Source of the DNA: Acidiphilium multivorum AIU301
Lineage (GTDB): Bacteria; Pseudomonadota; Alphaproteobacteria; Acetobacterales; Acetobacteraceae
Length of the DNA stretch: 64,000 nt
NCBI RefSeq assembly: GCF_000202835.1
Contig: NC_015186.1
Span: forward strand, 620,001-684,000
Direction: 5' to 3'
Below the pieces are notes generated by a model that ran no database searches, was not told where the DNA came from, and saw only the letters and a list, made by a program, of their open reading frames with translations. Positions within the stretch are counted from its first letter, which is position 1. Each line of letters begins with the position of its first letter. Made by a program: the position numbers and the translations under genes. Shown here piece after piece: positions 4,511 through 25,964 of the stretch.

Positions 4511-4546
4511 GCACGTTGCCAGTGCCGGACAACACAAGGAGCGGAC

Positions 4547-5320: not shown

Positions 5321-5327
5321 GGCAGCG

Positions 5328-6101
5328 ATGAGCGGACGCCTGCAGGGCAAATACGCAGCCATCACCGGCGGGGCCGGTGGCATCGGCCGGGCGATGGCGG
5401 CGGGCTACATCGCCGAGGGGGCCACGGTCTGCATTGCCGACCGGTCACTGGAAGCGGCAGCCGCCGCCGCGTGCGAACTCGGGCCGCAGGCGCATGCCTG
5501 TGCGCTCGATGTGGCGGAGATGGCGTCGATCGCCGCCTTCACCGATTTCACCGCCGCGCGCGGCGGGCTCGACATTCTGGTGAACAACGCCGCGGTGTTC
5601 GATCTCGCGCCGATTGCCGACATCACCGAGGCAAGCTACGACCGTCTCTTCGCGGTCAACGTGAAGGGCCTTCTGTTTACCCTGCAGGCGGTCGCCCGGC
5701 AGATGATCGCCAACGGCCGGCGCGGGCGGATCATCAACATGGCCTCTCAGGCCGGCCGCCGCGGCGAGGCGCTGGTCGGCGTCTATTGCGCCACCAAGGC
5801 GGCGGTGATCAGTCTCACCCAGTCTGCCGGGCTCGACCTGATCCGCCACGGCATCCGTGTCAACGCCATCTCCCCCGGCGTGGTGGACACGCCGATGTGG
5901 CAAGAGGTCGATGCGCTGTTCGCGAAATATGAAAGCCTGCCGGTTGGCGAGAAGAAGCGTCAGGTCGGCCTTGCCGTGCCCTATGGAAGGATGGGCCGGC
6001 CGGACGATCTGGTCGGTGCCGCCATCTTCCTCGCCTCCGACGAGGCGGAATACGTCGTCGCCCAGACGCTCAACGTCGATGGCGGCAACTGCATGAACTG
6101 A
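5328..6101 (+). CDS. smoS: Sorbitol dehydrogenase (SmoS-like SDR)
   Basis: NAD-dependent SDR, 257 aa, oxidising D-glucitol (sorbitol) to D-fructose. TGGAGGIG is near 13-20, NNAAVFDLAPI near 86-97, with Ser140, Tyr153 and Lys157 as the catalytic set. Long stretches match the remembered Rhodobacter SmoS, including MASQAGRRGEALVGVYCATK and the C-terminal VAQTxNVDGGN; the enzyme class is therefore fairly sure. Start ATG 5328 lies eight bases after the preceding stop with GAGG in between; an in-frame upstream ATG would overlap the previous gene. Last gene of the polyol operon. Confidence 0.9.
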   Translation: MSGRLQGKYAAITGGAGGIGRAMAAGYIAEGATVCIADRSLEAAAAAACELGPQAHACALDVAEMASIAAFTDFTAARGGLDILVNNAAVFDLAPIADITEASYDRLFAVNVKGLLFTLQAVARQMIANGRRGRIINMASQAGRRGEALVGVYCATKAAVISLTQSAGLDLIRHGIRVNAISPGVVDTPMWQEVDALFAKYESLPVGEKKRQVGLAVPYGRMGRPDDLVGAAIFLASDEAEYVVAQTLNVDGGNCMN

Positions 6102-6112
6102 ACGCAAGCGGA

Positions 6113-6137
6113 CCGCCGGTGTTGAGTTGACCGGCGG
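6113..6137 (+). terminator. Hairpin after smoS, terminator-like
   Basis: Inverted repeat CCGCCGGT / ACCGGCGG with a 9-base loop starts 11 bases after the smoS stop and 44 bases before zwf. No T-run follows, so it may be only a weak or Rho-assisted terminator, or an attenuator between the polyol operon and zwf. Confidence 0.35.
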
Positions 6138-6181
6138 CCCGGCCTATACGGGGCAGCGGCAACCAGGGATTATTTTGACCC

Positions 6182-7681
6182 ATGAATTTTTCCCAGCCCA
6201 TCATCGACCCGTTCGACTACGTGGTGTTCGGCGGCACCGGCGATCTCGCGCGCCGCAAGCTTCTGCCCGCGCTTTACCTCCGCGATCTCGATGGTCAACT
6301 GCCGGAAACGTCCCGCATCGTCGGCTCTGCCCGAACCGACATGACGGGCGAGGGGTTTCGCGAACTCGTTGAGGCCAGTCTGCGCGAATTCATCGCCGAC
6401 AAGCTCGACCCCGAGGTTCTTGCCCGCTTCCTCGCCCGGCTGCACTACGTCTCCGTCGACGCCAAGGCCGCGCGCGGCTGGCCTGAACTTGCCACTTTGC
6501 TCAGCGACGAACCGCGCCAGATCCGCGTCTTCTACCTCGCCACCGCTCCCGAGCTTTACGGCCCGATCGCCGACAACATCCACGCCCACGGCCTGCAAAC
6601 GCCTGAAACCCGCATCGTGCTGGAAAAGCCGATCGGCCACGACCTTGCCTCCGCCCGCGCCATCAACGATCGTGTCGGCGCGGTGTTCGAGGAGCGCAAC
6701 ATCTTCCGCATCGATCATTATCTCGGCAAGGAAACGGTGCAGAACCTCCTGGTCCTGCGCTTCGCCAACTCGCTGTTCGAACCGGTCTGGAACCATAACG
6801 GCATAGACCATGTGCAGATCACCGTCGCCGAGACCGTCGGCGTCGAGGATCGCGGTGGCTATTACGACCATACCGGCGCGCTGCGCGACATGATCCAGAA
6901 CCACCTGATGCAGCTGCTCTGCCTCGTGGCGATGGAGCCGCCAGCAACGTTCGACCGCGAGGAAGTGCGCGACGAGAAGATCAAGGTATTGAAATCCCTC
7001 GCTCCGATTTCCCGTGACGATATCGCAACAAAATCCGTCCGTGGCCAGTACCGCGCCGGCGCGATCAAAGGCGGCCCGGTGAAATCCTATGCCGAGGAAA
7101 AGGACATCGCCCCCGGCTCCACCACCGAAACCTTCGCCGCCCTCAAGGTCGAGGTCCGCAACTGGCGCTGGGCCGGCGTGCCGTTCTATCTGCGCACCGG
7201 CAAGCGGATGCCCGAGAAGGTCTCGGAAATCGTCATCCAGTTCAAGCCGGTGCCCTACTGGATCTTCCCCACCGGCTCGGATCACGCGATGCCGAACCGC
7301 CTCGTCATCCGCGTGCAGCCGGACGAGCATATCCGCCTGCATCTGTGGACGAAGGAACCGGGCCCCGGCGGCCTGCGCCTGCGCAACGCCCCGCTCAACC
7401 TGAGCTTTGCCGAAACCTTCAAGAACAACCACATGCCGGATGCCTACGAGCGCCTGCTGATGGATGTGGTGCGCGGCAACGCCACCCTGTTCATGCGGCG
7501 CGACGAGGTCGAGGCCGCCTGGGAATGGACCGAATCCATCCTGGATGCCTGGAAATCCGCCGGCGACCGTCCCAAGCTCTACACCGCCGGCACCTGGGGC
7601 CCGTCCGAGGCGGTGGCGATGATCGTCCGCGACGGCCGCACCTGGTTCGACGAACAGGCCGGCTACGGCGCCGGCGACTGA
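6182..7681 (+). CDS. zwf: Glucose-6-phosphate 1-dehydrogenase
   Basis: Oxidises glucose-6-phosphate to 6-phosphogluconolactone with NAD(P)+, the entry to the Entner-Doudoroff and oxidative pentose phosphate routes. 499 aa, normal family length. The coenzyme motif [11 protein letters not shown] is at about 17-27 and the active-site signature RIDHYLGKE at about 176-184. Upstream of the ATG there is only a weak purine match (AGGGA). It heads a zwf-edd-eda group directly downstream of the polyol operon. No 6-phosphogluconolactonase gene (pgl) is in the group. Confidence 0.96.
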
Positions 7682-7723
7682 CGCGCCCCCGCACGGGCCG
7701 CGCGCACTGCGAGGAGCAAAGAC

Positions 7724-9538
7724 ATGGTTCAGGATGCGATCGCACGGGTCACCGACCGGATCAGGGCGCGCAGCGAGGCCGGGCGCGCCGCCTATCTCGC
7801 CCGCACCGGTGCGCTGATTTCGCGCGGCGTGCACCGCAGCGCGGTCGGCTGCGCCAATCTCGCCCACGCCCTGGCCGGCTGTGCCAAGGCCGAGCAGGAC
7901 GACCTCAAGCGCGACGACAAGCCGAATATCGGCATCGTCACATCTTATAATGATATGCTCTCGGCGCATCAGCCCTTCGGCCGCTTCCCCGACCTCATCA
8001 AGCATGCGGTGCGCGAGGCCGGCGGCATCGCCCAGGTCGCCGGCGGCGTGCCGGCGATGTGCGACGGCGTCACCCAGGGGCGGGAAGGGATGGAGCTCTC
8101 GCTCTTCTCGCGCGATGTCATCGCCATGGCCACCGCGATCGCCCTCTCGCACGACGTGTTCGACGGCGCGCTGCTCCTCGGCGTCTGCGACAAGATCGTC
8201 CCCGGCCTCGTCATCGCCGCCCTGTCCTTCGGCCACCTGCCGGCGATCTTCGTCCCCGCCGGGCCGATGCCCTCGGGCATTTCCAACACCGAGAAATCCC
8301 GCGTCCGCCAGCTCTACGCCGAGGGCAAGGTCGGCCGCGAGGAACTGCTCGAGTCCGAAATCGGCGCCTATCACAGCCCCGGCACCTGCACCTTCTACGG
8401 CACCGCCAACTCCAACCAGATGCTGATGGAGATCATGGGCCTGCATCTGCCCGGCGCCTCCTTCGTCAACCCCAACACCGAGCTGCGCGACGCGCTGACC
8501 GGTGCGGCGGCGAAGCGCATCCTCGAAATCACCGCCCGCGGCAACGAATTCACCCCGGTCGGCCAGATGGTCGACGAGCGGACGGTGGTTAACGGCATGA
8601 TCGGCCTGCTCGCCACCGGCGGCTCGACCAACCACACCATCCACCTCGTCGCCATGGCCCGCGCCGCCGGCATCGCCATCACCTGGCAGGATTTCTCCGA
8701 TCTCTCCGAACACATCCCGCTGCTCACCCGCATCTATCCCAACGGCAGTGCCGACGTGAACCATTTTCAGGCCGCCGGCGGCATGCCGGTGCTGATTGGC
8801 GCCCTGCTCGATGCCGGCCTGCTGCACGGCGATGCCCGCACCGTCTGGAGCCCGGACGGGTTGCAGGCTTATCGCGACCAGCCGGTGCTGGAGGAAAAGG
8901 TCTTGCGCTGGAAACCCGCCCCGGCCGCAAGCCTCAACCGCGACATCCTCCGCGATGCGACCGAGCCCTTCAGCAAGGATGGCGGCCTGCGCATCATGCA
9001 CGGCAATCTCGGCCAGGCGGTCACCAAAATCTCCGCCGTCAAGCCCGAGCACCGCGTCGTCGTCGCCCCGGCCCGCGTCTTCCGCAGCCAGGAAGCGATG
9101 CAGGAGGCGTTCAAGGCCGGCGAACTGCACCGCGATTTCGTCGCCATCGTCACCCATCAGGGCCCGAAGGCGAACGGGATGCCCGAATTGCACAAGCTGA
9201 CACCGCCCCTCGGCGTGTTGCAGGATCTCGGCTTCAAGGTCGGCCTCGTCACCGACGGGCGGATGTCCGGCGCCTCCGGCAAGGTGCCCTCGGCGATCCA
9301 CGTGACGCCGGAAAGCGCCTGCGGCGGCGCGCTGGCGAAGGTGAGGGATGGCGACATGATCAGGCTCGACTGCGAGGCCGGCATATTGGAGGTTCAGGTG
9401 GATCAGGCGGAATTTGCGGCGCGGCCGCTCCCGGAGGTCGATCTCTCGGCGCATCACCACGGCATCGGCCGCGACCTGTTCGGCGCCTTCCGCGCCGCCG
9501 TCGCCGGGGCCGATCTCGGCGCGAGCGTCTTCGCATGA
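7724..9538 (+). CDS. edd: Phosphogluconate dehydratase
   Basis: First dedicated Entner-Doudoroff enzyme: dehydrates 6-phosphogluconate to 2-keto-3-deoxy-6-phosphogluconate. 604 aa, full length. The IlvD/Edd family features CDKIVPG and [14 protein letters not shown], with the iron-sulfur cluster cysteines, are present, as is the C-terminal [15 protein letters not shown] signature. GAGGAG precedes the ATG. Its stop overlaps the eda start by four bases (ATGA), indicating coupled translation. Confidence 0.96.
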
Positions 9539-10170
9539 ACCGCCAGGACGGGCTCGATGCCCTGCTCGCCGTCTCGCCGGTCATCCCGGTCCTGACGATC
9601 GACAACGCGGCGGATGCCGTCCCGCTCGCCCGCGCCCTGATCGAGGGCGGCGTCGGCGTCGTCGAGGTCACGCTGCGCACGAAGGCGGCGATGGAGGCGA
9701 TCGCGGCGATGGCCGAAGCGGTCCCCGAAATGGTCGTCGGCGCCGGCACCGTGCTCACCCCGTCGCAATATCGCGAGGTCGAGGAAGCCGGCGCCAAATT
9801 CGTCGTCTCGCCCGGCTCCAGTCCCGCCGTGCATGCCGCGGCGGCGAAAAGCCGCGTGCCATTCCTCCCCGGTGCCGCAACGCCGACCGAGGTGCTGCAC
9901 CTGCTCGAGGCCGGTTTCCGCTACCAAAAATTCTTTCCGGCCGAGCAGGCCGGCGGCATCCCGATGCTGAAGGCAATCGGCGCGCCGATCCACGAGGTCA
10001 CCTTCTGCCCGACCGGCGGAATCACTCCCACCACCGCGCCCGATTACCTGGCTCTCGCCAACGTGATCTGCGTCGGCGGTTCCTGGCTCACCCCTGCCGC
10101 CGCGCTGCGCGCCGGCGACTGGGCGGGAATCGCCAAGCTTGCCGCCCAGGCCGCCGCATTGAAACGGTAG
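9535..10170 (+). CDS. eda: KDPG aldolase (2-dehydro-3-deoxy-phosphogluconate aldolase)
   Basis: Cleaves KDPG to pyruvate and glyceraldehyde-3-phosphate, the last Entner-Doudoroff step. 211 aa, class I aldolase. Schiff-base Lys132 lies in the YQKFFPAE motif, general base Glu44 in VEVTLRT, and PGAATPTEV and CPTGGI form the phosphate-binding loops. Its ATG overlaps the edd stop. Downstream there is a nested hairpin before the sugar symporter. Confidence 0.96.
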
Positions 10171-10182
10171 CCTCGCTGTCTA

Positions 10183-10221
10183 TCTCCCGATAGAGCCGCC
10201 CTCCCGGCGGCGATCGGGAGA
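10183..10221 (+). promoter_or_regulatory. Nested hairpin covering the RBS of the sugar symporter
   Basis: Outer arms TCTCCCGAT (10183-10191) and ATCGGGAGA (10213-10221), 9 bp perfect; inner arms GCCGCC (10195-10200) and GGCGGC (10206-10211) around a CTCCC loop. The Shine-Dalgarno GGGAG of the next gene lies inside the right outer arm, six bases before its ATG. Folded, the RNA would hide the ribosome-binding site. It may also act as an eda terminator or processing signal, but no T-run follows. Confidence 0.5.
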
Positions 10222-10226
10222 AGGCC

Positions 10227-11570
10227 ATGAATTTCACGGTGATCGCCATCATCGCGGGTCTCGGCGGACTTCTGTTCGGCTATGACACCGGAGTGATCTC
10301 GGGTGCGTTGCTGTTCATCCGGCACGTCTTTCACCTCGGTCCGGCAATGCAGGGCGTGGTCGTCGCCATCGCTCTCGGCGCCGCGGCGGTAGGCGCTGCC
10401 GTCGCCGGCACCCTGTCCGACAAATTCGGCCGCCGCCCCGTCCTGCTGGTCACGGCGGCGGTCTTCGTCCTCGGCGCGTTGCTTTCCGCTGCAGCCTGGA
10501 GCGTGGCAATCCTGCTCGCCGGCCGCGTCCTTGTCGGCGGCGCCATTGGCGTCGCCTCGATGCTCACGCCGCTCTACCTTTCCGAGATGTCGCCGCGCGA
10601 CAAGCGCGGCGCGGTCGTGACGATCAACCAGGCCTACATCACCATCGGCATCGTGGTGTCCTACGGCGTCGGCTACCTGTTCTCCCATGGCGGCGATGGC
10701 TGGCGCTGGATGCTCGCGCTCGGCGCCCTACCGGGTGTCATCCTGTTCGCCGGCATGCTGGTCTTGCCCGAGAGCCCGCGCTGGCTGGCCGGCAAGGGCC
10801 ATCGTGAGGCTGCGCGCAAATCGCTCGCCTTCCTGCGCGGAGGGCACGATGTCGAGAGCGAACTGCGTGACCTCCGGCAGGATCTTGCCCGCGAAGGCCG
10901 CGCGACGGCCCCCTGGTCCGTCCTGCTGGAGCCGCGCGCCCGCATGCCGCTCATCGTCGGCATCGGCCTTGCGGTGTTCCAGCAGATCACTGGCATCAAC
11001 ACGGTCATTTATTTCGCGCCCACCATCTTCCAGAAGGCCGGCCTGTCCTCCGCTTCGGTCTCCATCCTCGCCACCGCCGGCGTCGGCCTCGTGAACGTGG
11101 TGATGACCTTCGTCGCCATGCGCCTGCTCGATTCCGCCGGCCGTCGCCGCCTGCTGCTGGTTGGCCTGTCGGGCATGCTGGTCACCCTGCTCGCCGTCGC
11201 CGGCGGCTTCATGGCCGGAATGCAGGGTGGCCTCGCCTGGGTCACGGTGATCTCGGTCGCCGCCTATGTCGCCTTCTTCGCCATCGGCCTCGGTCCGGTC
11301 TTCTGGCTGCTGATTGCCGAGATCTTCCCTCTCGCGGTGCGCGGCCGCGGCATGTCGCTCGCGACCATCGCCAACTGGGCGTTCAACATGCTGGTCTCGA
11401 TCACTTTTCTCGACCTCGTCCACGGTCTTGGCCGCGGCCCGACCTTCCTGATCTACGCGGCGATGACGTTGATTACCCTTGTCTTCACCTGGTTCCTGGT
11501 GCCCGAGACCAAGGGGCGCAGCCTCGAACAGATCGAGGCTGCGCTGGAAGGCGAGGGCCGCCTCGCCTGA
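10227..11570 (+). CDS. MFS sugar/H+ symporter (sugar porter family)
   Basis: Inner-membrane proton-coupled sugar importer, 447 aa, about 12 membrane segments. Sugar-porter signatures are present: GYDTGVISGAL in helix 1, DKFGRRP in loop 2-3, PESPRWL after helix 6, QQITGINTVIYF in helix 7 and PETKG near the C-terminus. This is the XylE/GalP/AraE group; the sugar (glucose, galactose, xylose or arabinose) cannot be assigned. It follows eda by 57 bases and probably feeds glucose into the adjoining Entner-Doudoroff genes. GGGAGAAGG before the ATG is part of a hairpin. Confidence 0.9.
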   Translation: MNFTVIAIIAGLGGLLFGYDTGVISGALLFIRHVFHLGPAMQGVVVAIALGAAAVGAAVAGTLSDKFGRRPVLLVTAAVFVLGALLSAAAWSVAILLAGRVLVGGAIGVASMLTPLYLSEMSPRDKRGAVVTINQAYITIGIVVSYGVGYLFSHGGDGWRWMLALGALPGVILFAGMLVLPESPRWLAGKGHREAARKSLAFLRGGHDVESELRDLRQDLAREGRATAPWSVLLEPRARMPLIVGIGLAVFQQITGINTVIYFAPTIFQKAGLSSASVSILATAGVGLVNVVMTFVAMRLLDSAGRRRLLLVGLSGMLVTLLAVAGGFMAGMQGGLAWVTVISVAAYVAFFAIGLGPVFWLLIAEIFPLAVRGRGMSLATIANWAFNMLVSITFLDLVHGLGRGPTFLIYAAMTLITLVFTWFLVPETKGRSLEQIEAALEGEGRLA

Positions 11571-11577
11571 GGCGGCG

Positions 11578-12852
11578 TCAGCCCGCGAAGAAGATCAGCG
11601 TCGTCAGCGCGAAGAGCGGCAGCAGCACTGCGGATGCTGCCAGCATATAACCGAAGAAGCCCGGCATCCGCACGCCCCGCCGAGCGGCGATCGCGCGGAT
11701 CATCAGGTTCGGCGCATTGCCGAGATAGGTCAGCCCGCCGAACAGCACCGAGCCGGCGGCGAAGCTCGTGAGCAGCGTCGCCGGCGGGGCGATCAGCTGC
11801 GCCGCGTTGCCGCCCGCCGCCTCGAAGAACATCAGATAGGTCGGCCCGCTATCGAGAAATGCCGAGGACAGGCCCGAGGCCCAGAACCACCCCGCCGCCG
11901 ATTGCGGCAGCCCCGCCGCCGTCACGGTGCGCAACACCGGCGGAATCGTCGCGAAGATCGCGAAGAACAGGATGGCGATCTCGCGCATCGGCGCCCAGGC
12001 GAACTGGTTGCGCGCGCGGATTGCCCGCGGCGTGACCCGCTCGGATGCCGCGACGAAGACGATTGCTGTCAGCGTGATCGCGATCTGCCCCGCCGGCAGC
12101 GATGCCGGCCCGATCGCGATCTCCGGTCCCGGCACGATGCCGGCCACCGTGAGCACCGCGATGAAGATGCCCAGCATCGCCAGATTGGCGCCGCCACGCA
12201 CCCTGATCCGCTCAGCCGGCCGCACCGGCTCACGCCGCGCCAGTCGCCAGTCGATGGCGAAGGTGAGGGCCAGCACAGGCAAGACCACCACCAGCATCGG
12301 CCCGGCAAGGTTGAACAACGGCCAGAAAAACGGCACCCCGCGCAAAAAGCCGATCAGCAGCGGCGGGTCACCGAGCGGAGTCAGCGCGCCCCCGGCATTG
12401 GCGACGACGAAAATGAACGCCAGCACCAGGTGCCGCACCTCGCGCCGCGCCGCGTTCGCCGACAGCAGCGGATGGATCAGCAGCAGCGAGGCCGCGATCG
12501 TGCCCATCGCCGAGGCGAGCAGCGTGCCCGCCGCCAGCAGCAGGAGGTTGCCGCCCGGCCGCCCCCACGGCCCGCCGGCGATCAGCACCCCGCCGCCCAG
12601 CGTGTAGAGCGCCATCAGCACCGCGATGAAGGGGAGGAAATCGACCAGCCCTGAATGCCACAGCTGTGTCAGCGCCGCCGCCGGCCCGGCGGCCTCGGCC
12701 CCGAACACGAGGCCGAGCGCCACCCAGAACAGGCTGATCCGCAGCATGTATCGGTGCCAGAGCCGTGGCGCCACGCCGGGCAGCAGCGCGAAACTCGCCA
12801 GCGTGCCGAAGAACGGAACGAGCGCGGCAAGTCCGGTCACATGCGGGTGCAT
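11578..12852 (-). CDS. NhaD-like sodium:proton antiporter / ion transporter-family membrane protein
   Basis: Polytopic inner-membrane protein, 424 aa, about 11-12 hydrophobic segments. ANAGGALTPLGDPPLLIGFLRG is the conserved core of the NhaD/ArsB-type ion transporter superfamily, with a second related half (TYLGNAPNLMIRAIA) near the C-terminus. Likely exports Na+ in exchange for H+, but citrate-type or other anion exchange is possible in this superfamily. It is convergent with the sugar symporter with only seven bases between the stops, and divergent from coxG. Confidence 0.75.
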   Translation of the reverse strand: MHPHVTGLAALVPFFGTLASFALLPGVAPRLWHRYMLRISLFWVALGLVFGAEAAGPAAALTQLWHSGLVDFLPFIAVLMALYTLGGGVLIAGGPWGRPGGNLLLLAAGTLLASAMGTIAASLLLIHPLLSANAARREVRHLVLAFIFVVANAGGALTPLGDPPLLIGFLRGVPFFWPLFNLAGPMLVVVLPVLALTFAIDWRLARREPVRPAERIRVRGGANLAMLGIFIAVLTVAGIVPGPEIAIGPASLPAGQIAITLTAIVFVAASERVTPRAIRARNQFAWAPMREIAILFFAIFATIPPVLRTVTAAGLPQSAAGWFWASGLSSAFLDSGPTYLMFFEAAGGNAAQLIAPPATLLTSFAAGSVLFGGLTYLGNAPNLMIRAIAARRGVRMPGFFGYMLAASAVLLPLFALTTLIFFAG

Positions 12853-12964
12853 CGTGCGCCGCCTTTCAAGATGTCATCGGACAGGGCAGGGCGGATTTGC
12901 GCGCGCGGCGGCCTCAAACTAAAGATGCGGTAACGGAACACGGTCACGAAGGAGAGCACGCCCC

Positions 12965-13600
12965 ATGGAAATGTCGGGAGAACGGCTGATTGCTGCGCCG
13001 CGCGAGGCGGTCTGGGCCGCGCTGAACGACCCCGAAGTCCTCAAGGCGTGCATACAGGGCTGCGAATCCATTGAAAAGCTCTCCGATACCGAGATGACCG
13101 CGACCGTTGCCGCCAAGATCGGCCCGATTTCCGCGCGGTTCAATGGCAAGGTGACACTCGCCGATCTCGACCCGCCGAACGCCTACACGATTTCCGGTGA
13201 AGGGCAGGGCGGTGTCGCCGGCTTCGCCAAGGGTGGGGCGAAGGTGCAGCTCGCCGATGCCGAGGGCGGCACGAAACTGACCTATCAGGTCTCGGCGCAG
13301 ATCGGCGGCAAGATGGCCCAGCTCGGCGCCCGCCTGATCGATTCGGTGGCGAAATCCTACGCCGAATCCTTCTTCACGAAATTTTCCGAACGGCTCGCGC
13401 CCGCGCCCGAAGCCGCACCCGCGCCGACCCCCACCAAGGAGACGACCAGCATGGCCGAACACGCACATGACCACGCCCATCCCGCCCATGGCGAGGACCG
13501 CAGCAACCCGGTCATCGCCGGGCTGCCCCTCGGAATCTGGGTTCCCATCATCATTTCCGCCGTTGTCGTGGCGCTGGTCATTTCTAAATTCCTTGGATGA
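12965..13600 (+). CDS. coxG: CoxG: SRPBCC-domain protein with C-terminal membrane anchor
   Basis: Carbon monoxide dehydrogenase subunit G family, 211 aa. Residues 1-145 form the SRPBCC fold (start MEMSGERLIAAPREAVW, then the characteristic ADLDPPNAYTISGEGQGG). A Pro/Ala linker and a His-rich patch (HAHDHAHPAHGE) lead to one hydrophobic C-terminal helix. In Oligotropha CoxG is proposed to recruit CO dehydrogenase to the membrane. GGAG precedes the ATG at about the right distance, and the stop overlaps the next start (ATGA). No CO dehydrogenase structural genes (coxMSL) are in the window, so the client enzyme is unknown. Confidence 0.88.
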   Translation: MEMSGERLIAAPREAVWAALNDPEVLKACIQGCESIEKLSDTEMTATVAAKIGPISARFNGKVTLADLDPPNAYTISGEGQGGVAGFAKGGAKVQLADAEGGTKLTYQVSAQIGGKMAQLGARLIDSVAKSYAESFFTKFSERLAPAPEAAPAPTPTKETTSMAEHAHDHAHPAHGEDRSNPVIAGLPLGIWVPIIISAVVVALVISKFLG

Positions 13601-14499
13601 CCGAAACCTCCCTCCCGCGCACCGTCGCCGAAACCGCCGAACTGCTCGCCCGCGGCAACTATGTTGCCGACCGGGCACTGGCGACCAGCGTCCATCTCGC
13701 CCTCGCCATGGGCCGCCCGCTCTTCCTCGAGGGCGAGCCCGGCACCGGCAAGACCGAGATCGCCAAGGTGCTGGCCGAGCAGCTCGGCCGGCGCCTCGTG
13801 CGCCTGCAATGCTATGACGGGCTCGATCTCGCCGCCGCTGCCTACGAGTGGGACCACGCCCGCCAGCTGATGGAAATCCGCCTTGCCGAATCCGGCGGTG
13901 CCAGCCGCGCCTCCCTTCGCGAGACGCTCTATTCCGCCGAATTCCTGCTCCGCCGCCCGCTGCTCTCGGCGATCGATCCGGGCCTGCCGCCCGCCGTCCT
14001 TCTGATCGACGAGCTCGACCGCGCGGACGAGCCCTTCGAGGCATTCCTCCTCGAATTGCTGGGCGATTTCCAGATCACCATCCCCGAACTCGGCACCATC
14101 GCCGCCTCCACCCGGCCCGTCGTCGTCATCACCTCCAACCGCACCCGCGAGGTGCACGACGCGATCCGCCGCCGCTGCCTCTACCAGTGGGTGGACTACC
14201 CCGATGCCGTCCGCGAGCGCGCCATCCTCGCCGCCCGCGCGCCCGGCGTGCCGGCGAAGCTCTCCGCCCAGGTGGTCGAATTCGTGCAGCGCATCCGCAC
14301 CACCGACATCTTCAAGCTCCCCGGCGTCGCCGAAACGATCGACTGGGCCTCCGCCCTCGCCGCGCTGGACGAGGTCGAGCTCGCCCCCGCCGCGGTCGAG
14401 GACACGCTCGGCGCCCTGCTGAAATACCAGGACGACATCGCCAAAATCCGTGGCGAGACCGCCGCCCGCCTGACCGGGGAGGCGATCCAGGCGGCATGA
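13597..14499 (+). CDS. coxD: CoxD / MoxR-type AAA+ ATPase
   Basis: AAA+ ATPase of the MoxR group, 300 aa. Walker A GEPGTGKTE is near residues 45-55, Walker B LLIDELDRAD near 133-142, and sensor 1 with TSNRTREVHDA near 180-190. In Oligotropha CoxD works with the VWA protein CoxE to build the [CuSMoO2] centre of CO dehydrogenase. It overlaps coxG by four bases and the next gene by four bases, so the three are one transcription and translation unit. Its partner CoxE is here cut short and fused to an unrelated protein. Confidence 0.9.
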   Translation: MTETSLPRTVAETAELLARGNYVADRALATSVHLALAMGRPLFLEGEPGTGKTEIAKVLAEQLGRRLVRLQCYDGLDLAAAAYEWDHARQLMEIRLAESGGASRASLRETLYSAEFLLRRPLLSAIDPGLPPAVLLIDELDRADEPFEAFLLELLGDFQITIPELGTIAASTRPVVVITSNRTREVHDAIRRRCLYQWVDYPDAVRERAILAARAPGVPAKLSAQVVEFVQRIRTTDIFKLPGVAETIDWASALAALDEVELAPAAVEDTLGALLKYQDDIAKIRGETAARLTGEAIQAA

Positions 14500-16481
14500 G
14501 CGCCTCCGATACGGGACGGCTCGCGCCGAATGTGATGCATTTCGCGCGCCTGCTCCGGCGCGCCGGCCTGCCTGTCGGCCCCGGCGAGGTCATCGCCGCC
14601 GCCGAGGCGCTCACCCATGTCGACATCACCGACCGGCGGGTGATGCGAGCGGCGCTACAGGCGGTGATGCTGCGCCGGCACGAGCACGCGCTGCTGTTCG
14701 ACCAGGCCTTCTCGGTCTTCTGGCGCAACCCCGACGCCGCCAAATTCGCCCAGATGCTGGCGGCGATGGATGGGCGCGCCCCGCGCGAGGAAAAGGCCGC
14801 CGCCGGCGCCCGCCGCCTTGCCGAGGCGATGCAGGCGGCCAAGTCGCGCGAGCAGGAACCCCGCCCCGACGAACGCCGCGAGATCGACGCGCTGCTCTCC
14901 GCCTCTGGCCAGGAACGCCTCGAATCCCTCGATTTCGAGGCGATGAGCGCCGAGGAGATCGCCGCCGCCTACCCGGTCGACGACAATGCCGGCAAGCGGA
15001 TCGGCTATTTCATCTGGCGCCCCTACCGCCCCGGCACGGCGGTGCTGTCGCGGGCGATGCCGATCCTCGGCGGGCTGCTCGCCCTGGCGCTGCTCACCGT
15101 CGCCGGCTTCCTCGCCGTCGTCCGCAGCCGCTCGCTCCGGCTACAGGCGAGCGAGGTGCGGATCCATCACCTCGCGTTTCACGATCCGCTGACGGGCCTG
15201 CCCAATCGCACCTTCTTCAACGAGAGCGCCGATGCCGCCCTCGCCGCGCTGTCTGGGACCTCGATCGCGCTGCTCTTTCTCGATCTCGACCGCTTCAAGC
15301 AGGTGAACGACACGCTGGGCCATCCCGCCGGCGACACGCTGATCCGCGAATTTGGCGCGCGCCTCCGCGCCCTGGTCCGCGAGGAGGACATGGTCGCCCG
15401 CGTCGGCGGCGACGAATTCACCGTCATGCTCGCTGGCGTTGCCGGGCGCGAGGATGTGGAGAAGCTCTGCGCGCGCATCGTCGAGTCCGTCCGCGTCCCC
15501 TTCGATCTTGATGGCAACCGTGTGTTCGTCGGGCTGAGCATCGGCGTCGCTCTCGCACCGGATCATGGCACGGACCGTATTGACCTGCTCCGCAAGGCCG
15601 ACATCGCCCTCTACAGTGCCAAATCCACCGGGCGCGGCCGCTTTGCGTTCTTTGACCCGGTCATGGACGACGCGCTCCGCCTTCGCCGCGAAATCGAGGC
15701 CGACCTGCGCGCTGCCCTGCAGGAAAGCGGCGAGATCGTGCCGTATTACCAGCCCATTCACGCCGCCGCCGGCCATACCATTACCGGGTTCGAGGCGCTG
15801 CTGCGCTGGCGCCACCCCGCGCTCGGCTGGATCTCGCCCGACCTGTTCATCCCCATCGCCGAGGAAGCCGGCCTGATCGAGATGATGGGCGAGCGCGTGC
15901 TCCGCGAGGCCTGCACTGCCGCGGTCAACTGGCCGAACCGCACCATCGCGGTGAACGCCTCCGGCCCCGAACTCGCCAATCCCGGCTATGCCGAGCGGGT
16001 CGCCGCCATCCTGCGCGTCACCGGCCTGCCGCCGCAGCGCCTCGAGATCGAGATCACCGAAACCGCCGCCAACGGCCAGATCGGCACCGCAGCCGAGAAC
16101 CTCGCATCGCTCCGGGCAATGGGGGTCCGCATCGCCATCGACGACTTCGGCACCGGTTTCTCTTCGCTTGCCCGCCTCCAGCAGCTCCGGGTCGACCGCG
16201 TCAAGATCGACCGCAGCTTTATCCACGGCTTCGGCGACCAGGACAGCGACGAGGTCATTGTCCGGGCGATCATCGAGCTCGCCCACGCCCGGGGGCTGCG
16301 CGTCACCGCCGAGGGCGTCGAGACACTGGAACAGCGCGAGGGCCTCGCGCGGATCGGCTGCGACGATCTCCAGGGCTTCATCTTCTCGAAGGCGCGGCCT
16401 GCCCCCGAAATCGACAGACTCGTCGAGGCCGACGACGCGCCTGCGAACGATATGCCCGCACCGCAGGGCCGTACCGCCTGA
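14496..16481 (+). CDS. Chimeric protein: truncated CoxE N-terminus fused to membrane-anchored GGDEF-EAL
   Basis: 661 aa. Residues 1 to about 158 read as the CoxE N-terminal region (HFARLLRRAGLPVGPGEV, LESLDFEAMSAEEIAAA). At about 158-160 (near base 14970) this stops and becomes the end of a periplasmic sensor domain (DNAGKRIGYFIW), one membrane helix at 188-209, GGDEF at 224-385 and EAL at 395-640. Catalytic features look whole: GGDEF 304-308, the inhibitory I-site REED at 295-298, EAL at 433-435, DDFGTG at 549-554, Lys570 and Glu607. The CoxE VWA domain is absent, as are the sensor domain's first membrane helix and most of its body. It overlaps coxD by ATGA. Probably the product of a deletion joining two genes, though a misassembly would look the same. 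Whether it makes or degrades c-di-GMP in the cell is unknown. Confidence 0.85.
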   Translation: MSASDTGRLAPNVMHFARLLRRAGLPVGPGEVIAAAEALTHVDITDRRVMRAALQAVMLRRHEHALLFDQAFSVFWRNPDAAKFAQMLAAMDGRAPREEKAAAGARRLAEAMQAAKSREQEPRPDERREIDALLSASGQERLESLDFEAMSAEEIAAAYPVDDNAGKRIGYFIWRPYRPGTAVLSRAMPILGGLLALALLTVAGFLAVVRSRSLRLQASEVRIHHLAFHDPLTGLPNRTFFNESADAALAALSGTSIALLFLDLDRFKQVNDTLGHPAGDTLIREFGARLRALVREEDMVARVGGDEFTVMLAGVAGREDVEKLCARIVESVRVPFDLDGNRVFVGLSIGVALAPDHGTDRIDLLRKADIALYSAKSTGRGRFAFFDPVMDDALRLRREIEADLRAALQESGEIVPYYQPIHAAAGHTITGFEALLRWRHPALGWISPDLFIPIAEEAGLIEMMGERVLREACTAAVNWPNRTIAVNASGPELANPGYAERVAAILRVTGLPPQRLEIEITETAANGQIGTAAENLASLRAMGVRIAIDDFGTGFSSLARLQQLRVDRVKIDRSFIHGFGDQDSDEVIVRAIIELAHARGLRVTAEGVETLEQREGLARIGCDDLQGFIFSKARPAPEIDRLVEADDAPANDMPAPQGRTA

Positions 16482-16976
16482 TGTCAAGCGGCACTTCGCG
16501 ACACGCGCGGAAGGTTGCCTGTCTGCTCCTCTGTCAACTGCCACCCATATGCAGAATTTCCGACACTGCCTGATCGGTTTGAGAAAGTGATCGCGCGCAG
16601 CCTTGCGACTGTCCGGACGATCCTGCGGATGACCTGATCGACTTCCGCTGACCAAAATATGCCCGCCAAATCTTCGTAATCGTCGCCATCACCACATCCC
16701 GGCTCCGCCCCCATATCGTCCATGGGGGCGATTGTGGATCCAGCGTCCCCAAGAGCCCGATGCGTTGCCGATCCCCCAAACAACCTGGCCCTTATTCCAT
16801 GCCGAAAGACCGTCTGATCCCGGTTGGAAGGCGATCGTACGAACGGTTGAACGTGCCGCCCCGCCCTGTCCTTTCTCCCGACTCTCTGCTTGATCCAGCG
16901 CAACGCCCGGCACATGCGGTCTGCCTAGCCTCCACACACGCAATAAGCGGCAACCTTCTTGGCGTGGAGCAAGACA
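16482..16976. other. Intergenic region without a supported gene
   Basis: About 495 bases. Several frames stay open on both strands, but none has an RBS, a plausible composition or recognisable similarity. The only clear structure is a 9-bp perfect hairpin at 16706-16730. It separates the chimeric cyclase gene from the small secreted protein gene and could hold leftovers of the rearrangement that made the chimera; nothing recognisable as a transposase was seen. Confidence 0.5.
16706..16730. repeat. Perfect hairpin, 9-bp arms
   Basis: CGCCCCCAT / ATGGGGGCG with a 7-base loop ATCGTCC. No T-run on either side, so not a standard terminator for either strand. Role unknown. Confidence 0.5.
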
Positions 16977-17306
16977 ATGGCCTTACGTATCGACTCATCG
17001 GAAATCATGTCCCGCCGGCGCGTCGTCGCCGGCGCCGCCGGGCTGGCTGGCCTGGCTGCCGGCCTGGTTGCCCTCAGCCGCACGGCCCGGGCGCAGGACC
17101 AGGATCAGGACCGGCTGCGCGATCAGGACAAACTGCAGGATCCCGATCAGGACCGCGATCTCGACCGTGACCGCGACCGCGACATGACGCACGACCAGAT
17201 CGGCGTTGGCCGAGGCCCCGCAGCGGGCGGCCACGGGTCGGGAAGCGGCGCGGGCGGCGGCGGCGGTGCCGGCGGTGGTGGCGCTGGTGGGGGCGGAGGC
17301 CGATAG
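16977..17306 (+). CDS. Small exported low-complexity protein (Asp/Gln/Arg repeats, Gly tail)
   Basis: 109 aa, not recognised as a known family. Near the N-terminus SRRRVVAGAAGLAG followed by a hydrophobic stretch and an ARA-QD cleavage site looks like a Tat-type or Sec signal peptide. The mature part begins with about 30 residues built from DQD, DRD, RDQDK and similar units, followed by a tail that is almost only Gly, Ala and Ser and ends in Gly-Arg. ATG 16977 has GGAG about 9 bases upstream; starting at the later ATG (SRRR immediately after Met) is also possible. A real terminator lies 130 bases downstream. Function unknown; highly charged soluble periplasmic protein expected. Confidence 0.6.
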   Translation: MALRIDSSEIMSRRRVVAGAAGLAGLAAGLVALSRTARAQDQDQDRLRDQDKLQDPDQDRDLDRDRDRDMTHDQIGVGRGPAAGGHGSGSGAGGGGGAGGGGAGGGGGR

Positions 17307-17703
17307 GCCTGCGCAACGTCTGTCCGGGAGGACATGCGGTCTCCACTGGCGGCAGAGCCGGGCGGCGGCATGATGAACTCGCGCGAGACTACCGCGTTTT
17401 CTGCAAGCCAAGCCCACTCGCGACAACTGTGTGTGCCCCGGAGCGATCCGGGGCCTTCTTTCCGCCCGCCGGAGCGAACCCGGTATTGGCTCAATCGGAA
17501 GCTGTCGCCGTTCATCTCAAGGAGAGGACGTGATGGGCCAGTCGGTAGAGTTGCGCGCCTCCATCAGTTGATGCACCAGACCGGCTACGGTCACGAACCC
17601 CGCCGGGAGGCCGCTTGCCTGCGCGGTCTCTCGGCCTGGTTCAACGCGCCACCGCTAGCCTGGTGTTGTCATCAGGATCGACAGCTTCACACCCTCAGCG
17701 GAG
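17307..17703. other. Intergenic region with one terminator
   Basis: About 397 bases between the low-complexity protein gene and the 3' end of the DJ-1/PfpI gene, which points toward it. Apart from the terminator at 17436-17463, I see no gene, RNA gene or repeat. Confidence 0.5.
17436..17463 (+). terminator. Rho-independent terminator
   Basis: Stem CCCCGGA / TCCGGGG, loop GCGA, followed by CCTTCTTTCC. A classic GNRA-type tetraloop terminator with a moderately T-rich tail. It serves the + strand unit ending with the low-complexity protein gene. Confidence 0.7.
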
Positions 17704-18399
17704 TCAATGTTGCGTGGCGAGGCGGGATGCTGCTTCGCGGGTTTGGGCCTCGCGGGTCGCAGCCAGCCGAGCGAGACCCTGCCGGCAGGCCGCGAGGATG
17801 TCAGGCGGCGCGTGTTCCGGGCGCCCAGCCTCGAAGGGTGGGGCGGGAGCGTATTCGAAGCCCAGCTGGAGGGTTTGCGCCACCTGCGGACCGGCAATCT
17901 CGGCGAGGACCACGAGCGCGAAATCAATTCCCGCGGTCACACCGCCGCCGGTGATGACGTTGCCATCGCGCACCACGCGGCCGTCATCCGGAATTGCGCC
18001 GAACGGCTTCAGCAGGTCTCGCCACGCCCAGTGGCACGCGGCGCGCCGCCCCCGCAACAGCCCGGCGGCGCCGAGGATCAGCGAACCGGTGCAGACCGAG
18101 GTGATGTAGCGTGCATCGGCGGCAAGTCGGCGGAGTTCGGAGATAAAGCCGTCGTCCAGCGCCGCGTCGAGCGCGTTTGTGCCGCCCGGCACGCAGAGAA
18201 GGTCACAGCCGGGAACGTCCGCAAGGCGGGCGGTGCGGGCGAAGACGAGGCCGTCGCTCGGCACATCGCCGCCATCGCGACTGGCGACGATGACCTCGCA
18301 TCCCGGCGCGCGGATGAAGAACTGGTGCGGACCCGTGAAATCGAGCTGGGTCATGCCCGGATAGACGGCGAAGAGGATACGAAATGGCGGTGGGGACAT
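17704..18399 (-). CDS. DJ-1/PfpI family protein (isonitrile hydratase-like)
   Basis: 231 aa, class I glutamine amidotransferase-like fold. The nucleophile elbow SVCTGSLILG puts Cys103 at the active site, and Asp20 in LDFTGP matches the Asp/Cys pair of Pseudomonas isonitrile hydratase. The family match is clear, the substrate is not. The start at 18399 is chosen because GGAG precedes it and the protein then begins MSPPPFRILF; an upstream in-frame ATG would overlap the divergent gene's promoter. It is divergent from a GlxA-type regulator with the same fold, which may control it. Confidence 0.82.
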   Translation of the reverse strand: MSPPPFRILFAVYPGMTQLDFTGPHQFFIRAPGCEVIVASRDGGDVPSDGLVFARTARLADVPGCDLLCVPGGTNALDAALDDGFISELRRLAADARYITSVCTGSLILGAAGLLRGRRAACHWAWRDLLKPFGAIPDDGRVVRDGNVITGGGVTAGIDFALVVLAEIAGPQVAQTLQLGFEYAPAPPFEAGRPEHAPPDILAACRQGLARLAATREAQTREAASRLATQH

Positions 18400-18477
18400 G
18401 GGGTATCTCCGATGATGCGACCGAGTGTCCCATGACGGCACGATTGACGAAATGACCATGATCCCTCATTTCAGGCC

Positions 18478-19425
18478 ATGGCCCGGCATATCGGCATCCT
18501 GATCTATCAGGACTTCCAGATCCTCGACGCCTCGGGGCCGATCACGGCGTTCGAGATCGCCGCGCGGCATCAGGCGGACGTGTATCGGCTGGCGATCCTC
18601 TCCGCATCTGGCGGCCCCGTCCGCTCATCGTCCGGCGCCGTGCTGGGCAGCGAACCCGCCAGTGCGGCCGGTGCGCTGGACACTCTGATCGTGACGGGCG
18701 GCAGAGGCTGCCGGCGGGCAATGGAGTGTCCCGAGATCCGTGCCTTCGTCGTGGCGCAGGCGCGGGGAGCGAGGCGGCTGTGCAGCGTCTGTTCGGGTGC
18801 TTTCCTGCTGGCGGCGGCGGGCGTTCTGGACGGGCGGCGGGTGACGACGCATTGGCGACGGACGGAGGAACTGGCGCGGCTGTTTCCGCGCCTCCTGGTC
18901 GAGCCGGATGCCATTCACATCCGTGACGGGGCGATATGGACCTCGGCGGGGATTACCGCCGGCATCGATCTGTCGCTGGCGCTGATCGCCGGGGACCTGG
19001 GCGAGGCGGTGGCGCGGCGCGTGGCGCAGGAGATGGTGGTCTATTATCGCCGGCCGGGCGGGCAGTCGCAGTTTTCGGCGCTGATCGAGATGGGTGGAGG
19101 AGACGGACGCTTCGCCGGGCTGCTCGGCTGGATGCGCGACCATCTGGACGCGCGTCTGACCGTCGAGGTGCTGGCCGAACGGGCCGCGATGAGTCCACGG
19201 CATTTCTCGCGGGCATTCAGCCGGTCGGTCGGCATGAGTCCGGCGAGGGCGGTGGAGCGCCTGCGGCTGGAGACCGCGCGCGAGCGGGTCGAACATTCCA
19301 GCATGCCCATCGAGGTGATTGCCGGGATGGTCGGGTTTCACGACCCGGAACGCATGCGGCGGGCGTTCCTGCGCGCCTTCGGCCAGCCGCCGCAGGCCTT
19401 GCGCCGCAGCGCGCAAGCGCAATGA
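18478..19425 (+). CDS. GlxA-type transcriptional regulator (DJ-1/PfpI + AraC HTH)
   Basis: 315 aa. The N-terminal ~185 residues are an amidotransferase-like sensor domain with Cys105 in SVCSGAFLL. The C-terminal ~95 residues are an AraC-type double helix-turn-helix (MSPRHFSRAFSRSVGMSPARAVERLRLE, then VIAGMVGFHDPERMRRAF). Such proteins bind DNA as activators and sense a small ligand with the N-terminal domain. It starts 78 bases from the divergent DJ-1/PfpI gene, so control of that promoter is the natural guess. Confidence 0.9.
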   Translation: MARHIGILIYQDFQILDASGPITAFEIAARHQADVYRLAILSASGGPVRSSSGAVLGSEPASAAGALDTLIVTGGRGCRRAMECPEIRAFVVAQARGARRLCSVCSGAFLLAAAGVLDGRRVTTHWRRTEELARLFPRLLVEPDAIHIRDGAIWTSAGITAGIDLSLALIAGDLGEAVARRVAQEMVVYYRRPGGQSQFSALIEMGGGDGRFAGLLGWMRDHLDARLTVEVLAERAAMSPRHFSRAFSRSVGMSPARAVERLRLETARERVEHSSMPIEVIAGMVGFHDPERMRRAFLRAFGQPPQALRRSAQAQ

Positions 19426-19478
19426 CGGCGACGGGTCACGCCGGCTGTTTCCCGTATCGGCAACGGGCAAGGAGCCGA

Positions 19479-19502
19479 GCGCGGGAGGTCGGACTCCCGC
19501 GC
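19479..19502. terminator. Hairpin between convergent genes, likely bidirectional terminator
   Basis: Perfect 9-bp stem GCGCGGGAG / CTCCCGCGC with loop GTCGGA, between the end of the GlxA-type gene and the end of the convergent 3-hydroxybutyrate dehydrogenase gene. No strong T-run on either side. Confidence 0.5.
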
Positions 19503-19517
19503 GTTGACCGGATGCGG

Positions 19518-20300
19518 CTACTGCATGAACCAGCCATGGCTGACGACCATCGACTGGCCGGTCAGGGCATTGCTCGGGAATCCGGCGAAATGGAGCACCG
19601 CGGCGGCGACGTCTTCCACGGTTGTGAATTCGCCGTCCACGGTGTCTTTCAGCATGACATTGCGCACGACGTCATCCTCGCTGATGCCGAGTTCCTTTGC
19701 CTGTTCCGGGATCTGCTTTTCGACCAGCGGCGTCCGCACGAAGCCGGGGCAGACGACATTGGCGCGGACATTATGTTCCGCGCCCTCCTTGGCGAGAACC
19801 TTGCAGAGGCCGATCAGCCCATGCTTCGCGGTGACATAGGGCGCTTTCAGCTTCGACGCCTCCTTTGAATGCACCGACCCGATATAGACGACCGAGCCGC
19901 TTTTCTGCGCATACATGTATTTCAGGCAGGCGCGCGTCGTCAGGAATGCGCCGTCGAGATGTATCGAGAGCAGCTTCTTCCAGTCGGAAAAGGGAAACTC
20001 GGCAAGCGGCCTGACGATCTGGATGCCGGCATTGCTCACCAGCACATCGATCCGGCCGAACCTTTCAGCGGCGGCGGCAACGCCGTCCTCCACGTGTTGC
20101 TCGTCGGTGACGTCCATCGAAACCGCCAGCGGCGCCGGCCCGAAGGTCGCGATGGCGCTTGCCGTCTTGCGTGCGGCGTCGAGATCGAGATCGGCGATCA
20201 CGGCGTGGCCGCCTTCTCTGGCGAACTGTTCAGCGATGGCGCGGCCGATGCCGCTGGCGGCGCCGGTGATGATGCCGACCTTGCCGTCGAAACGGGCCAT
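19518..20300 (-). CDS. bdhA: 3-hydroxybutyrate dehydrogenase
   Basis: NAD-dependent SDR, 260 aa, interconverting D-3-hydroxybutyrate and acetoacetate. TGAASGIG is at 12-19 and the catalytic set is Ser142, Tyr155 and Lys159. The late segment [21 protein letters not shown] and the C-terminal SHGWFMQ are hallmarks of this enzyme. The ATG at 20300 has a GAGAAAAGGA stretch upstream. It is the last gene of a three-gene unit with patatin and acetoacetate decarboxylase genes; together they act on the 3-hydroxybutyrate/acetoacetate/acetone axis. Confidence 0.92.
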
Positions 20301-20340
20301 GGGAAAATCCTTTTCTCTTGAGGGGAATCCGGAGGGTCGA

Positions 20341-21078
20341 TCAGGCAAGATAGTCGTGGACGACCTCGCCGAGATCGAGCGTCATGTCCGCGAGGATGTG
20401 GGAGGCGGCGACGACTTCGCGAACCGGCAGATCGGCGACCGGGGCGAGGGCGTGCGGATAGAGCGCGAGCGCGGCGGGACCGGTCCAGGCACCTTTCAGG
20501 ACGATGTCGCTCATGTGATAGCGCACCAGTTCGCAGATGCGTGGCGAACCGTCGACATGCGGGATGATCTTGAGCAGGAAGTTCGGCTCATGCATCGAGG
20601 AGAGAACCGGATCGTGATCGAGCGTATGGTGCTTGTAGCCCATCGTGCCGGTGGCCACCCGGATTCGGCCGTAATCGAGCGTGCCAACCAGCGTGTCGAT
20701 TTCGACTTCCAGGACCGGGCGCGCGAGTTTCTTCGGAAAGCCCCAGATCTCCCGTCCGCCGGCGATCGGCGGATGGTCGTTCAGGAACATCGAATGGACA
20801 TAGACCCCAGGTTTGCCCTTGTAGCGAACCGGTATCACCTGGCCAGACTCCGTGTAGTCGCCGAAGCCGGTGCTGTCGGGCATGCGGATGAATTCGTATT
20901 TCACCACGTCATCGGCGAGTTCGAGCGGTTCGGGGACGATCTTCTCGAGCGCCGCGCGATCGGTGCGGTAGGTGATGATCATGTATTCGCGATTGACGAA
21001 GCGATAGGGTCCTTTCGGAAAGCCCGGGCTCGTCAGCGGCATCGCAAAGGCGGTTTCCCTGATCGTTGCTGCATCCAT
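20341..21078 (-). CDS. adc: Acetoacetate decarboxylase
   Basis: 245 aa, converting acetoacetate to acetone and CO2. The family signature [11 protein letters not shown] carries the Schiff-base lysine (Lys116/117 pair, equivalent to Lys115/116 of the clostridial enzyme) and Glu77 in the YTESGQ segment matches the active-site glutamate. The start at 21078 ([11 protein letters not shown]) gives normal family length; the longer in-frame extension overlaps the patatin gene. It lies between patatin and bdhA genes, 17 bases after the former and 40 bases before the latter. Confidence 0.92.
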
Positions 21079-21095
21079 CGTGGCAATGCTCCTCG

Positions 21096-22244
21096 TCAAG
21101 ATTCGGTTTTGGCGATGTCGAAGGTCCGCATGCCGAGTTCGTGCGGGTGTGGTTCGCGCCACGGTGCCGCGACCAGCGCGCGCGAGGCATCTTCGTGACC
21201 GTGGCGCCATCGTTCCGTGGCGGTGGTACGGTCGAACTGCACGTCCTTGTCGGCGCCCTGCGGATGCTCGGGGCGGTAGATCAAGTGTACGACATCGATC
21301 TGTGCCGGGCAGGAAAATTCTTGGAGATGCTTCGCGATCGGATCGTCGCGCAACTCGGGCGGCAGCTTTTCAAGGAAGGCGCAGACCCGGCGGCGCAGGT
21401 CCTGGCGGCGTTTCTCCGCGTCGGTGCCATAGCGCGTGCGGCTTGAATAGCGGATGTCCTTCTCGCGTTCGGCGACGCCATCGAGCGTTTTCGGCATCGG
21501 CCCACGGGCCGGAAACAGGTCCACCTGGAAGACCAGGCTATTCTCGCGCGGTTCGCAGCGCATCATGTATTCGAGCGGAGTGTTCGAGACGAGCCCGCCG
21601 TCCCAATAGGCTTCTCCATCGATTTCGACCGGCGGGAAGCCGGGCGGCAGGGCGCCGCTGGCCATGATGTGCTGCGGCGTGATCCGGCACTCGGCATTGT
21701 CGAAATAGATCATGTTGCCTGTACGAATCTGCACGGCGCCAACGGCAAGCCGCGTGGTGCCGCTATTGATCAGGTCGAAATCGACGAGTTCTTCGAGAGT
21801 CTGGCGCAGGTGGGCCGTATCGTAGAAGCTGAGCGGGTTTTCCGTAATGAAGTCGACCGGATGGCGGGGGCGGAAAAAGCCGGGTTGGCCGAACAGGACC
21901 GCGTTGAGCGCGCCGAGCTTCTTCTCGGCGGCGACGTGCAGGGACAGGGCGGGAGGAATGAAACCCGGCCGTGGGGTCGTGACGCGCTTCCAGAATTCGC
22001 GAAGCCGTTCGAGGCGGCGCTCCGGCGGATTGCCGACGATCAGGCTTGCATTGATCGCGCCGATCGAGACGCCGATGATCCAGTCGGGGTCGTAGGCGTG
22101 CTCCGCGAGTGCCTCGTAGGCGCCGGCTTGGTAGGCACCGAGCGCGCCGCCGCCCTGCAACAGAAGGACGTTCCGCAACCCCGTGGCGCAAGCCGGGGTG
22201 GCGGCGGAGGGCTGTCGGGATCTCCGCTTGTTCGTGACCGACAT
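21096..22244 (-). CDS. Patatin-like phospholipase
   Basis: 382 aa serine acyl-hydrolase. Oxyanion loop [11 protein letters not shown] starts at about 31, nucleophile elbow GVSIG at 58-62 (Ser60), and the catalytic Asp is in the later DGGLVSN motif. A C-terminal extension of about 110 residues (DUF3734-like) is present. Cytosolic, no signal peptide. It heads the adc-bdhA unit; patatin proteins are recurrent in polyhydroxybutyrate-related clusters, so a role in polymer or lipid acyl turnover is possible but only inferred. Confidence 0.88.
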
Positions 22245-22632
22245 CGGGTAAGCCTTTCCATTGGAGCCTGGCAGGGTTCGGCAAGGCGGTGGCGACAGGC
22301 GAGGTGCGGCCAGGTTGAGCCCGCGCGGCAGGATCGATCCGGAACCGGTGACCCGCCATGCGAATGCCGACCCGCCGATATTGACTGCCCTGATTTTGTG
22401 CGCTGCGGTAGAGGTCGCGATGACGTGTCAATAACACGTCATCGTCAGAAGAGGCCGTCGGCGACCGGCCGATCGGAAAAATTGCCGATACTGCAAGGAC
22501 AATCCAGAAACGCACTGGTTCCGGAGCCGGTGTTGTATCACCGTATCTTGAAGCAGCGGGCGTGAACCTGCGGCCGCGGATCCTGATGTCATGATCGGCA
22601 ACGGGACGATACGATGCCCGGAGCGATCCGCA
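22245..22632. other. Intergenic region upstream of the patatin unit
   Basis: About 388 bases between the patatin start and the 3' end of the PBP2 gene; both genes are on the minus strand. It holds the dyad at 22418-22444 and otherwise no gene I can support. Confidence 0.5.
22418..22444. promoter_or_regulatory. 11-bp dyad, candidate operator of the patatin-adc-bdhA unit
   Basis: Perfect arms CGATGACGTGT and ACACGTCATCG with a 5-base spacer CAATA, 174-200 bases before the patatin start. No T-run follows on either strand, which argues against a terminator for the PBP2 gene. Dimeric regulators bind such sites; which one is not evident. Confidence 0.5.
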
Positions 22633-25960: not shown

Positions 25961-25964
25961 ATGA
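25866..25964 (+). CDS. Short coupled leader ORF before yedE
   Basis: 32 codons, Gly/Ala-rich (begins MKAGGFGMAGAIAAG), too short for domain recognition. The ATG follows AAGGAGGAAGG, one of the strongest ribosome-binding sites in the window, and its TGA overlaps the yedE ATG as ATGA. Translation of yedE is therefore probably coupled to this peptide. Could be a leader peptide or simply a ribosome-loading device. yedE itself has only GGGGTGAGG as its own site. Confidence 0.45.
   Translation: MKAGGFGMAGAIAAGRNAGNGASPAVVTRGEA

Follow-up and report, generated by a model that had tools for sequence, protein, structure and literature searches.

Organization of the locus

The window analysed here is a stretch of 64,000 nucleotides from Acidiphilium multivorum AIU301 (NC_015186.1, positions 620,001 to 684,000), lying within the 3,749,411-base contig C6 of a genome of 4,214,744 bases in 9 contigs, and its subject is a chimeric gene that stands in the place of coxE. 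An intact coxG-like gene (12965-13600, + strand; PF06240, E 1.3e-36) is followed by an intact coxD-like gene for a MoxR/AAA ATPase (13597-14499, +; open reading frame (ORF) and domain search). Directly after it, where CoxE would be placed in the order coxG-D-E, lies a frame of 661 codons without a stop (14496-16481, +), which overlaps the stop of coxD in an ATGA. In this gene of 661 codons, a truncated CoxE is fused in frame to a GGDEF-EAL protein that is truncated at its N-terminus. Its CoxE part comprises residues 1-158 (14496-14969, +) and has no VWA domain, and the junction is located at codons 158/159 (14967-14972, +), where the DNA is identical to that of the nearest relative (genome G009) until 14969 and then diverges. 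The foreign part begins with the end of a periplasmic region and a single predicted membrane helix (14970-15131, +; helix at residues 181-212 from the Kyte-Doolittle profile and from alignment to the second helix of the parent), followed by a GGDEF domain (residues 227-381, 15174-15638, +; PF00990, E 2.8e-45) and an EAL domain (residues 402-632, 15699-16391, +; PF00563, E 2.1e-68).

The Pfam search of the chimera returned only these two domains, and VWA_CoxE (PF05762) was found neither in the protein nor in the whole genome. In NCBIfam, residues 14-86 weakly match MadC, a family of VWA proteins (E 5.9e-10, well under the cut-off), which is consistent with a CoxE-like start. The translation contains the GGDEF motif, an RxxD I-site five residues upstream of it, the EAL motif, DDFGTGF and other residues of the usual signature of such enzymes. 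A preliminary description of this DNA, made from the letters alone, had proposed the CoxE start with its ATGA overlap, the switch near residue 158, the preserved catalytic and I-site residues and the missing VWA domain, and the present results bear it out in all these points. The third-position GC contents of the two halves are alike (0.89 and 0.87), so that composition is no marker of recent acquisition for the cyclase half.

The CoxE parent and the lost cluster

The locus was compared with a genus set of 13 genomes, namely strain AIU301 itself (G000) and 12 other Acidiphilium genomes (G001-G012); one genome per species was searched, the class was represented by a sample, and no conspecific strain was included. 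For strains AccII, JA12-A1, JF-5, ZJSH63 and AccI, PMC8147356 reports average nucleotide identities of 98.97-99.29% to strain LMS. The N-terminal part of CoxE is present in 8 of the 12 other genomes (G001-G005, G007, G009 and G010) with 71-96% identity, in ORFs of 411-620 codons, and these same eight are the only ones among the 13 to be matched by VWA_CoxE, the genome of AIU301 and those of G006, G008, G011 and G012 giving no match. In G009, CoxE is intact with 403 amino acids, and residues 1-159 of the chimera are 96% identical to it. Since VWA_CoxE occupies residues 159-378 of this protein, the cut in strain AIU301 lies at the domain edge. The left flank (3734-14969) is largely syntenic with other Acidiphilium loci until the junction; the DNA is 91.7% identical to the G009 cox locus over 11572-14969, where the homology stops, and against the loci of the other seven relatives it stops between 14853 and 14964.

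What follows in the relatives is a conserved cluster. The order coxG-coxD-coxE-xdhC-MobA/MoeA-dehydrogenase was found in six of the eight loci fetched, and the remaining two (L047 and L048) end at contig ends. If dispersed repeats and paralogous matches that are short or weak are set aside, strain AIU301 has kept, of the corresponding 6.5 kb, the first 60 bases and, separately at 1.83 Mb, an ATP-binding cassette (ABC) transporter block. The xdhC, MobA/MoeA-like and 2-hydroxyacid dehydrogenase genes were not found in its genome by this locus comparison; a distant xdhC elsewhere, at which no search with the protein family was aimed, is possible. In comparison with CoxE (VWA_CoxE, PF05762) of the coxDEF clusters of Oligotropha carboxidovorans, the chimera likewise stands after coxD with the ATGA overlap and begins with 158 residues homologous to the CoxE of its relatives, but it has no VWA/MIDAS (metal ion-dependent adhesion site) domain, and the xdhC/coxF-like gene that comes next in the relatives is missing here.

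The CHASE4-GGDEF-EAL parent

The closest full-length relative of the cyclase half was found in the plasmid search. It is the CHASE4-GGDEF-EAL protein WP_138576146.1 of Paroceanicella profunda (plasmid pD4M1B), the DNA showing 67.6% identity over 92% of the query and the protein 53% identity to chimera residues 158-661, up to the last residue. A second full-length relative is encoded in a genome of the class-level sample (G435; 49%, aligned from residue 165). In the Paroceanicella protein, CHASE4 occupies residues 69-232 and the alignment starts at residue 249. From these two alignments, the foreign part starts where CoxE ends, and the first membrane helix and the whole CHASE4 domain of the parent have been lost; hydropathy shows one membrane helix in the chimera versus two in the parent, with no CHASE4 sensor between two helices. 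Thus the loss goes beyond the first half of the sensor, which was all that the preliminary description had supposed to be gone.

Within the genus, the best other match of the cyclase half, among matches listed best first, has 46% identity, which is at the level of a paralog. When three candidates per genome were scored in 394 genomes of the family, 99 of these genomes matched the cyclase half at E<=1e-110, the best match other than the chimera itself having 51% identity in an alignment that covers GGDEF-EAL alone. Residues 156-231 are matched in four other genomes of 397 family genomes at 34-36%. The missing half of the parent was not recovered either: a search of the AIU301 genome for CHASE4 (PF05228) gave nothing at E<=1, and tblastn with the N-terminal halves of the parents against the window and two 20-kb stretches of the same genome gave weak matches only (best E 0.036). 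Among viral contigs there was no exact match to the junction, and seven GGDEF or EAL relatives at 31-45% were found. The window holds a second GGDEF-EAL coding stretch (51769-53043, +), which is 40% identical to the cyclase half of the chimera and lies in an ORF of 1124 codons.

Distribution of the fusion and reliability of the junction

No second fusion was found in the 13 genus genomes. When 385 genomes of the class were searched with a query that spans the junction, 41 including AIU301 itself matched, several of them with alignments listed as crossing the junction position, as in G523 (query residues 2-99). Judged by their motifs, the 40 others are 33 ordinary CoxE frames with MIDAS, three GGDEF proteins, three histidine kinases and one xanthine-dehydrogenase-like chance match, and none of the 40 combines a CoxE start with GGDEF. 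On these 13 genus and 385 class genomes, an older, established family of fusions, carried by many relatives as the preliminary description had considered, is rejected. The new domain architecture that it proposed is so far a single instance. In the set of papers searched, none combines Acidiphilium and CoxE, while four mention CoxE together with GGDEF and 13 Acidiphilium together with diguanylate cyclase.

A join seen in one genome only, and there in the assembled sequence, could also come from an assembly error that brought two unrelated places together. However, neither the remainder of coxE nor a CHASE4 domain was found anywhere in the genome, and a wrong join by itself would not account for this. 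A join that keeps the frame and falls at a domain edge is also unlikely to arise in this way (by reasoning, the frame alone would be right in about one case in three). Moreover, the accessible part of PMC7677001 gives the AIU301 genome as complete, with a chromosome of 3,749,411, 8 plasmids and 4.21 Mb in total. Because contig C6 agrees in length with this published chromosome, misassembly, which had been named as the alternative at the outset, is very unlikely. The chimera is real and not due to chance, and it is most likely a young one-off.

Origin of the junction

None of the stretches fetched around the cox loci of the relatives matches the right flank (16482-44400), pieces of which match scattered places in the genus (13 genomes compared for 16482-24500 and six for 24501-44400). 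One such piece, a cluster of short-chain dehydrogenase, acetoacetate decarboxylase and patatin-like genes (19521-22244, -), has 77% DNA identity to a block of G005 on a contig other than that of its cox locus.

In G009, the cox cluster adjoins a 7.6-kb sugar ABC transporter block (L041:1937-9559), the counterpart of which in strain AIU301 (C6:1827701-1835262) is separated from the cox genes by 1.2 Mb and has the reverse orientation relative to them. As five other relatives (L042-L046) have the cluster in common with G009 up to the dehydrogenase gene but do not share the ABC block beyond it in the stretch fetched, the adjacency in G009 may itself be derived. A plain reciprocal inversion was rejected, as neither the coxE tail nor the CHASE4 half is joined at the displaced ABC block; an inversion plus a deletion is possible. 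A transposon at the junction was likewise rejected: a test of 10 proteins, all of them from the right flank between 16.9 and 28.1 kb, found no transposase, and no convincing repeat was found at the junction. According to the accessible part of PMC7677001, AIU301 carries 841 transposon sequences, the maximum in the genus. A repeat unit of about 110 bases, made up of two strong hairpins and dispersed over the chromosome, occurs in more than 25 copies on C6 at 81-95% identity and looks like a repetitive extragenic palindromic or miniature inverted-repeat transposable type of element; no copy was found in the window, and one was seen in G009 (L041:9796-9930).

The junction is compatible with a deletion that went along with a rearrangement. 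The preliminary description had favoured a deletion joining two genes in frame, and the in-frame join and the loss of the VWA domain and the cluster agree with it, but no relative was found that has an intact coxE and an intact cyclase gene flanking the deleted segment, and the best genus match of the cyclase half is only the 46% one given above. Since intact parents were not found side by side, a simple deletion between old neighbours is unsupported, and an earlier or simultaneous insertion or a larger rearrangement would be needed. We suggest that a recent, lineage-private chromosomal rearrangement with deletion was the source of the chimera, in which the deletion would have taken coxE from the VWA domain onward together with the xdhC, MobA/MoeA-like and 2-hydroxyacid dehydrogenase genes, and the 158 coxE codons left over would have been fused, with the frame kept, to the 3' two-thirds of a gene for a CHASE4-GGDEF-EAL protein, a gene that was not found elsewhere in the genus. 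Single-strain chimeric genes that arise by deletion or rearrangement are a general phenomenon, and the present case resembles them in that homology is lost abruptly inside one gene, the neighbours are gone and only one genome is affected; it differs in that the reading frame is kept across the join, which lies at a domain boundary.

As to the age, two polarised replacements in the coxE part fall on the AIU301 lineage versus two on the G009 lineage, and the ratio of nonsynonymous to synonymous substitution rates against G009 (dN/dS, simple Nei-Gojobori method) is 0.14 for the coxE part, compared with 0.05 (coxD), 0.09 (coxG) and 0.19 (the neighbouring gene at 11578-12852). These few changes are compatible with a young event. 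Whereas the fused frame, the missing cluster and the kind of both parents were observed, a single recent event is what we infer.

Predicted properties of the product

If made, the product would be translationally coupled to coxD and would lack the MIDAS/VWA region of CoxE as well as the first helix and the whole CHASE4 domain of the cyclase. The CoxE part treated in the accessible text of PMC3471820 is gone here, and CoxE function has thus very probably been lost. The first 158 residues contain 22 K/R and 24 D/E. Because the lone helix follows about 180 residues of cytoplasmic type, with a charged stretch ahead of it, the GGDEF-EAL module is likely to lie on the wrong side of the membrane, as predicted from hydropathy, unless these residues were exported. 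With the enzyme so placed, the product would be non-functional or only accidentally active, and the earlier idea that a cyclic di-GMP enzyme has come under cox control is disfavoured by this predicted topology.

A functional chimera, in which the N-terminal part of CoxE, kept beside CoxD, would steer a cyclic di-GMP enzyme made together with the cox genes, could account for the catalytic motifs and I-site in an open frame, the ATGA coupling, the cut at a domain edge and the lack of clear signs of decay. We consider it highly unlikely, however, given that the lost part is the one treated in that text, that the helix count predicts the wrong membrane side and that the chimera was not found in the other genomes of the genus and class searched. 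Very improbable, too, is a newborn two-part protein whose CoxE module, translated in coupling with coxD, would direct the location or the regulation of a working GGDEF-EAL enzyme and so wire molybdoenzyme maturation genes to cyclic di-GMP signalling in Acidiphilium multivorum. The cyclase half might also be active alone from an internal start, for example Met188 before the helix, which would leave a short tail outside and the enzyme inside, the CoxE part being junk. The Met188 codon (15057) at the start of the helix, the arginines after the helix and the intact cyclase motifs would suit this, but no clear ribosome-binding site was seen by eye ahead of 15057 and no sigma-70-like site was found in 12850-17000 in a scan for this one promoter type, and such a start is unlikely.

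Molybdoenzymes of strain AIU301

The genome of AIU301 has 11 matches to the molybdenum hydroxylase family MoCoBD_2, covered by 10 loci. The motif AYxCSFR, which we take to be that of the form I large subunit CoxL of carbon monoxide (CO) dehydrogenase, is absent at all 10 loci, only loci of that one family having been examined, and three AYRGAGR motifs occur among them instead. Since AYxCSFR was not found there, CO dehydrogenase is doubtful as the target, and so is CO oxidation as the function lost; of the proposal that the event broke CO dehydrogenase maturation, the loss of CoxE function very probably stands, but the named target does not hold firmly. In part, PMC7677001 counts against this doubt about CO oxidation, as CoxLMS is reported there in clades III and IV, with AIU301 in clade IV, but the form I motif was not found at the loci examined here. 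One MoCoBD_2 large subunit is encoded inside the window (37482-38309, -), and the 11 matches in the genome are present despite the loss of the coxE/xdhC maturation cluster.

Taking all of this together, a recent private chimera formed by deletion and rearrangement, which is probably non-functional, is in our opinion the probable explanation of the locus as a whole. Several points weigh against it. It was seen in the assembled sequence of one strain, so that a join error is formally possible, and none of the genus genomes searched still shows the locus as it was immediately before the fusion. The topology comes from hydropathy only, the structure model being poor (mean predicted local distance difference test score 52) and used only for the helix at 191-213. 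Both halves are free of stops and have kept their motifs, as in a functional protein too, and the dN/dS of the coxE part is above those of coxD and coxG and below that of the gene at 11578-12852, small counts that can not separate a young neutral sequence from a constrained one.

Implications

In what is apparently a type-strain genome, the locus records that a conserved cluster for molybdoenzyme maturation was lost and that an in-frame chimera arose, the intact state being kept in sister genomes. Annotation-based claims of CO oxidation for AIU301 need checking, as its locus lacks both the VWA part of coxE and the xdhC-like gene found next to it in the relatives. Should the chimera be active, it would provide a rare instance of domain shuffling caught soon after the event.
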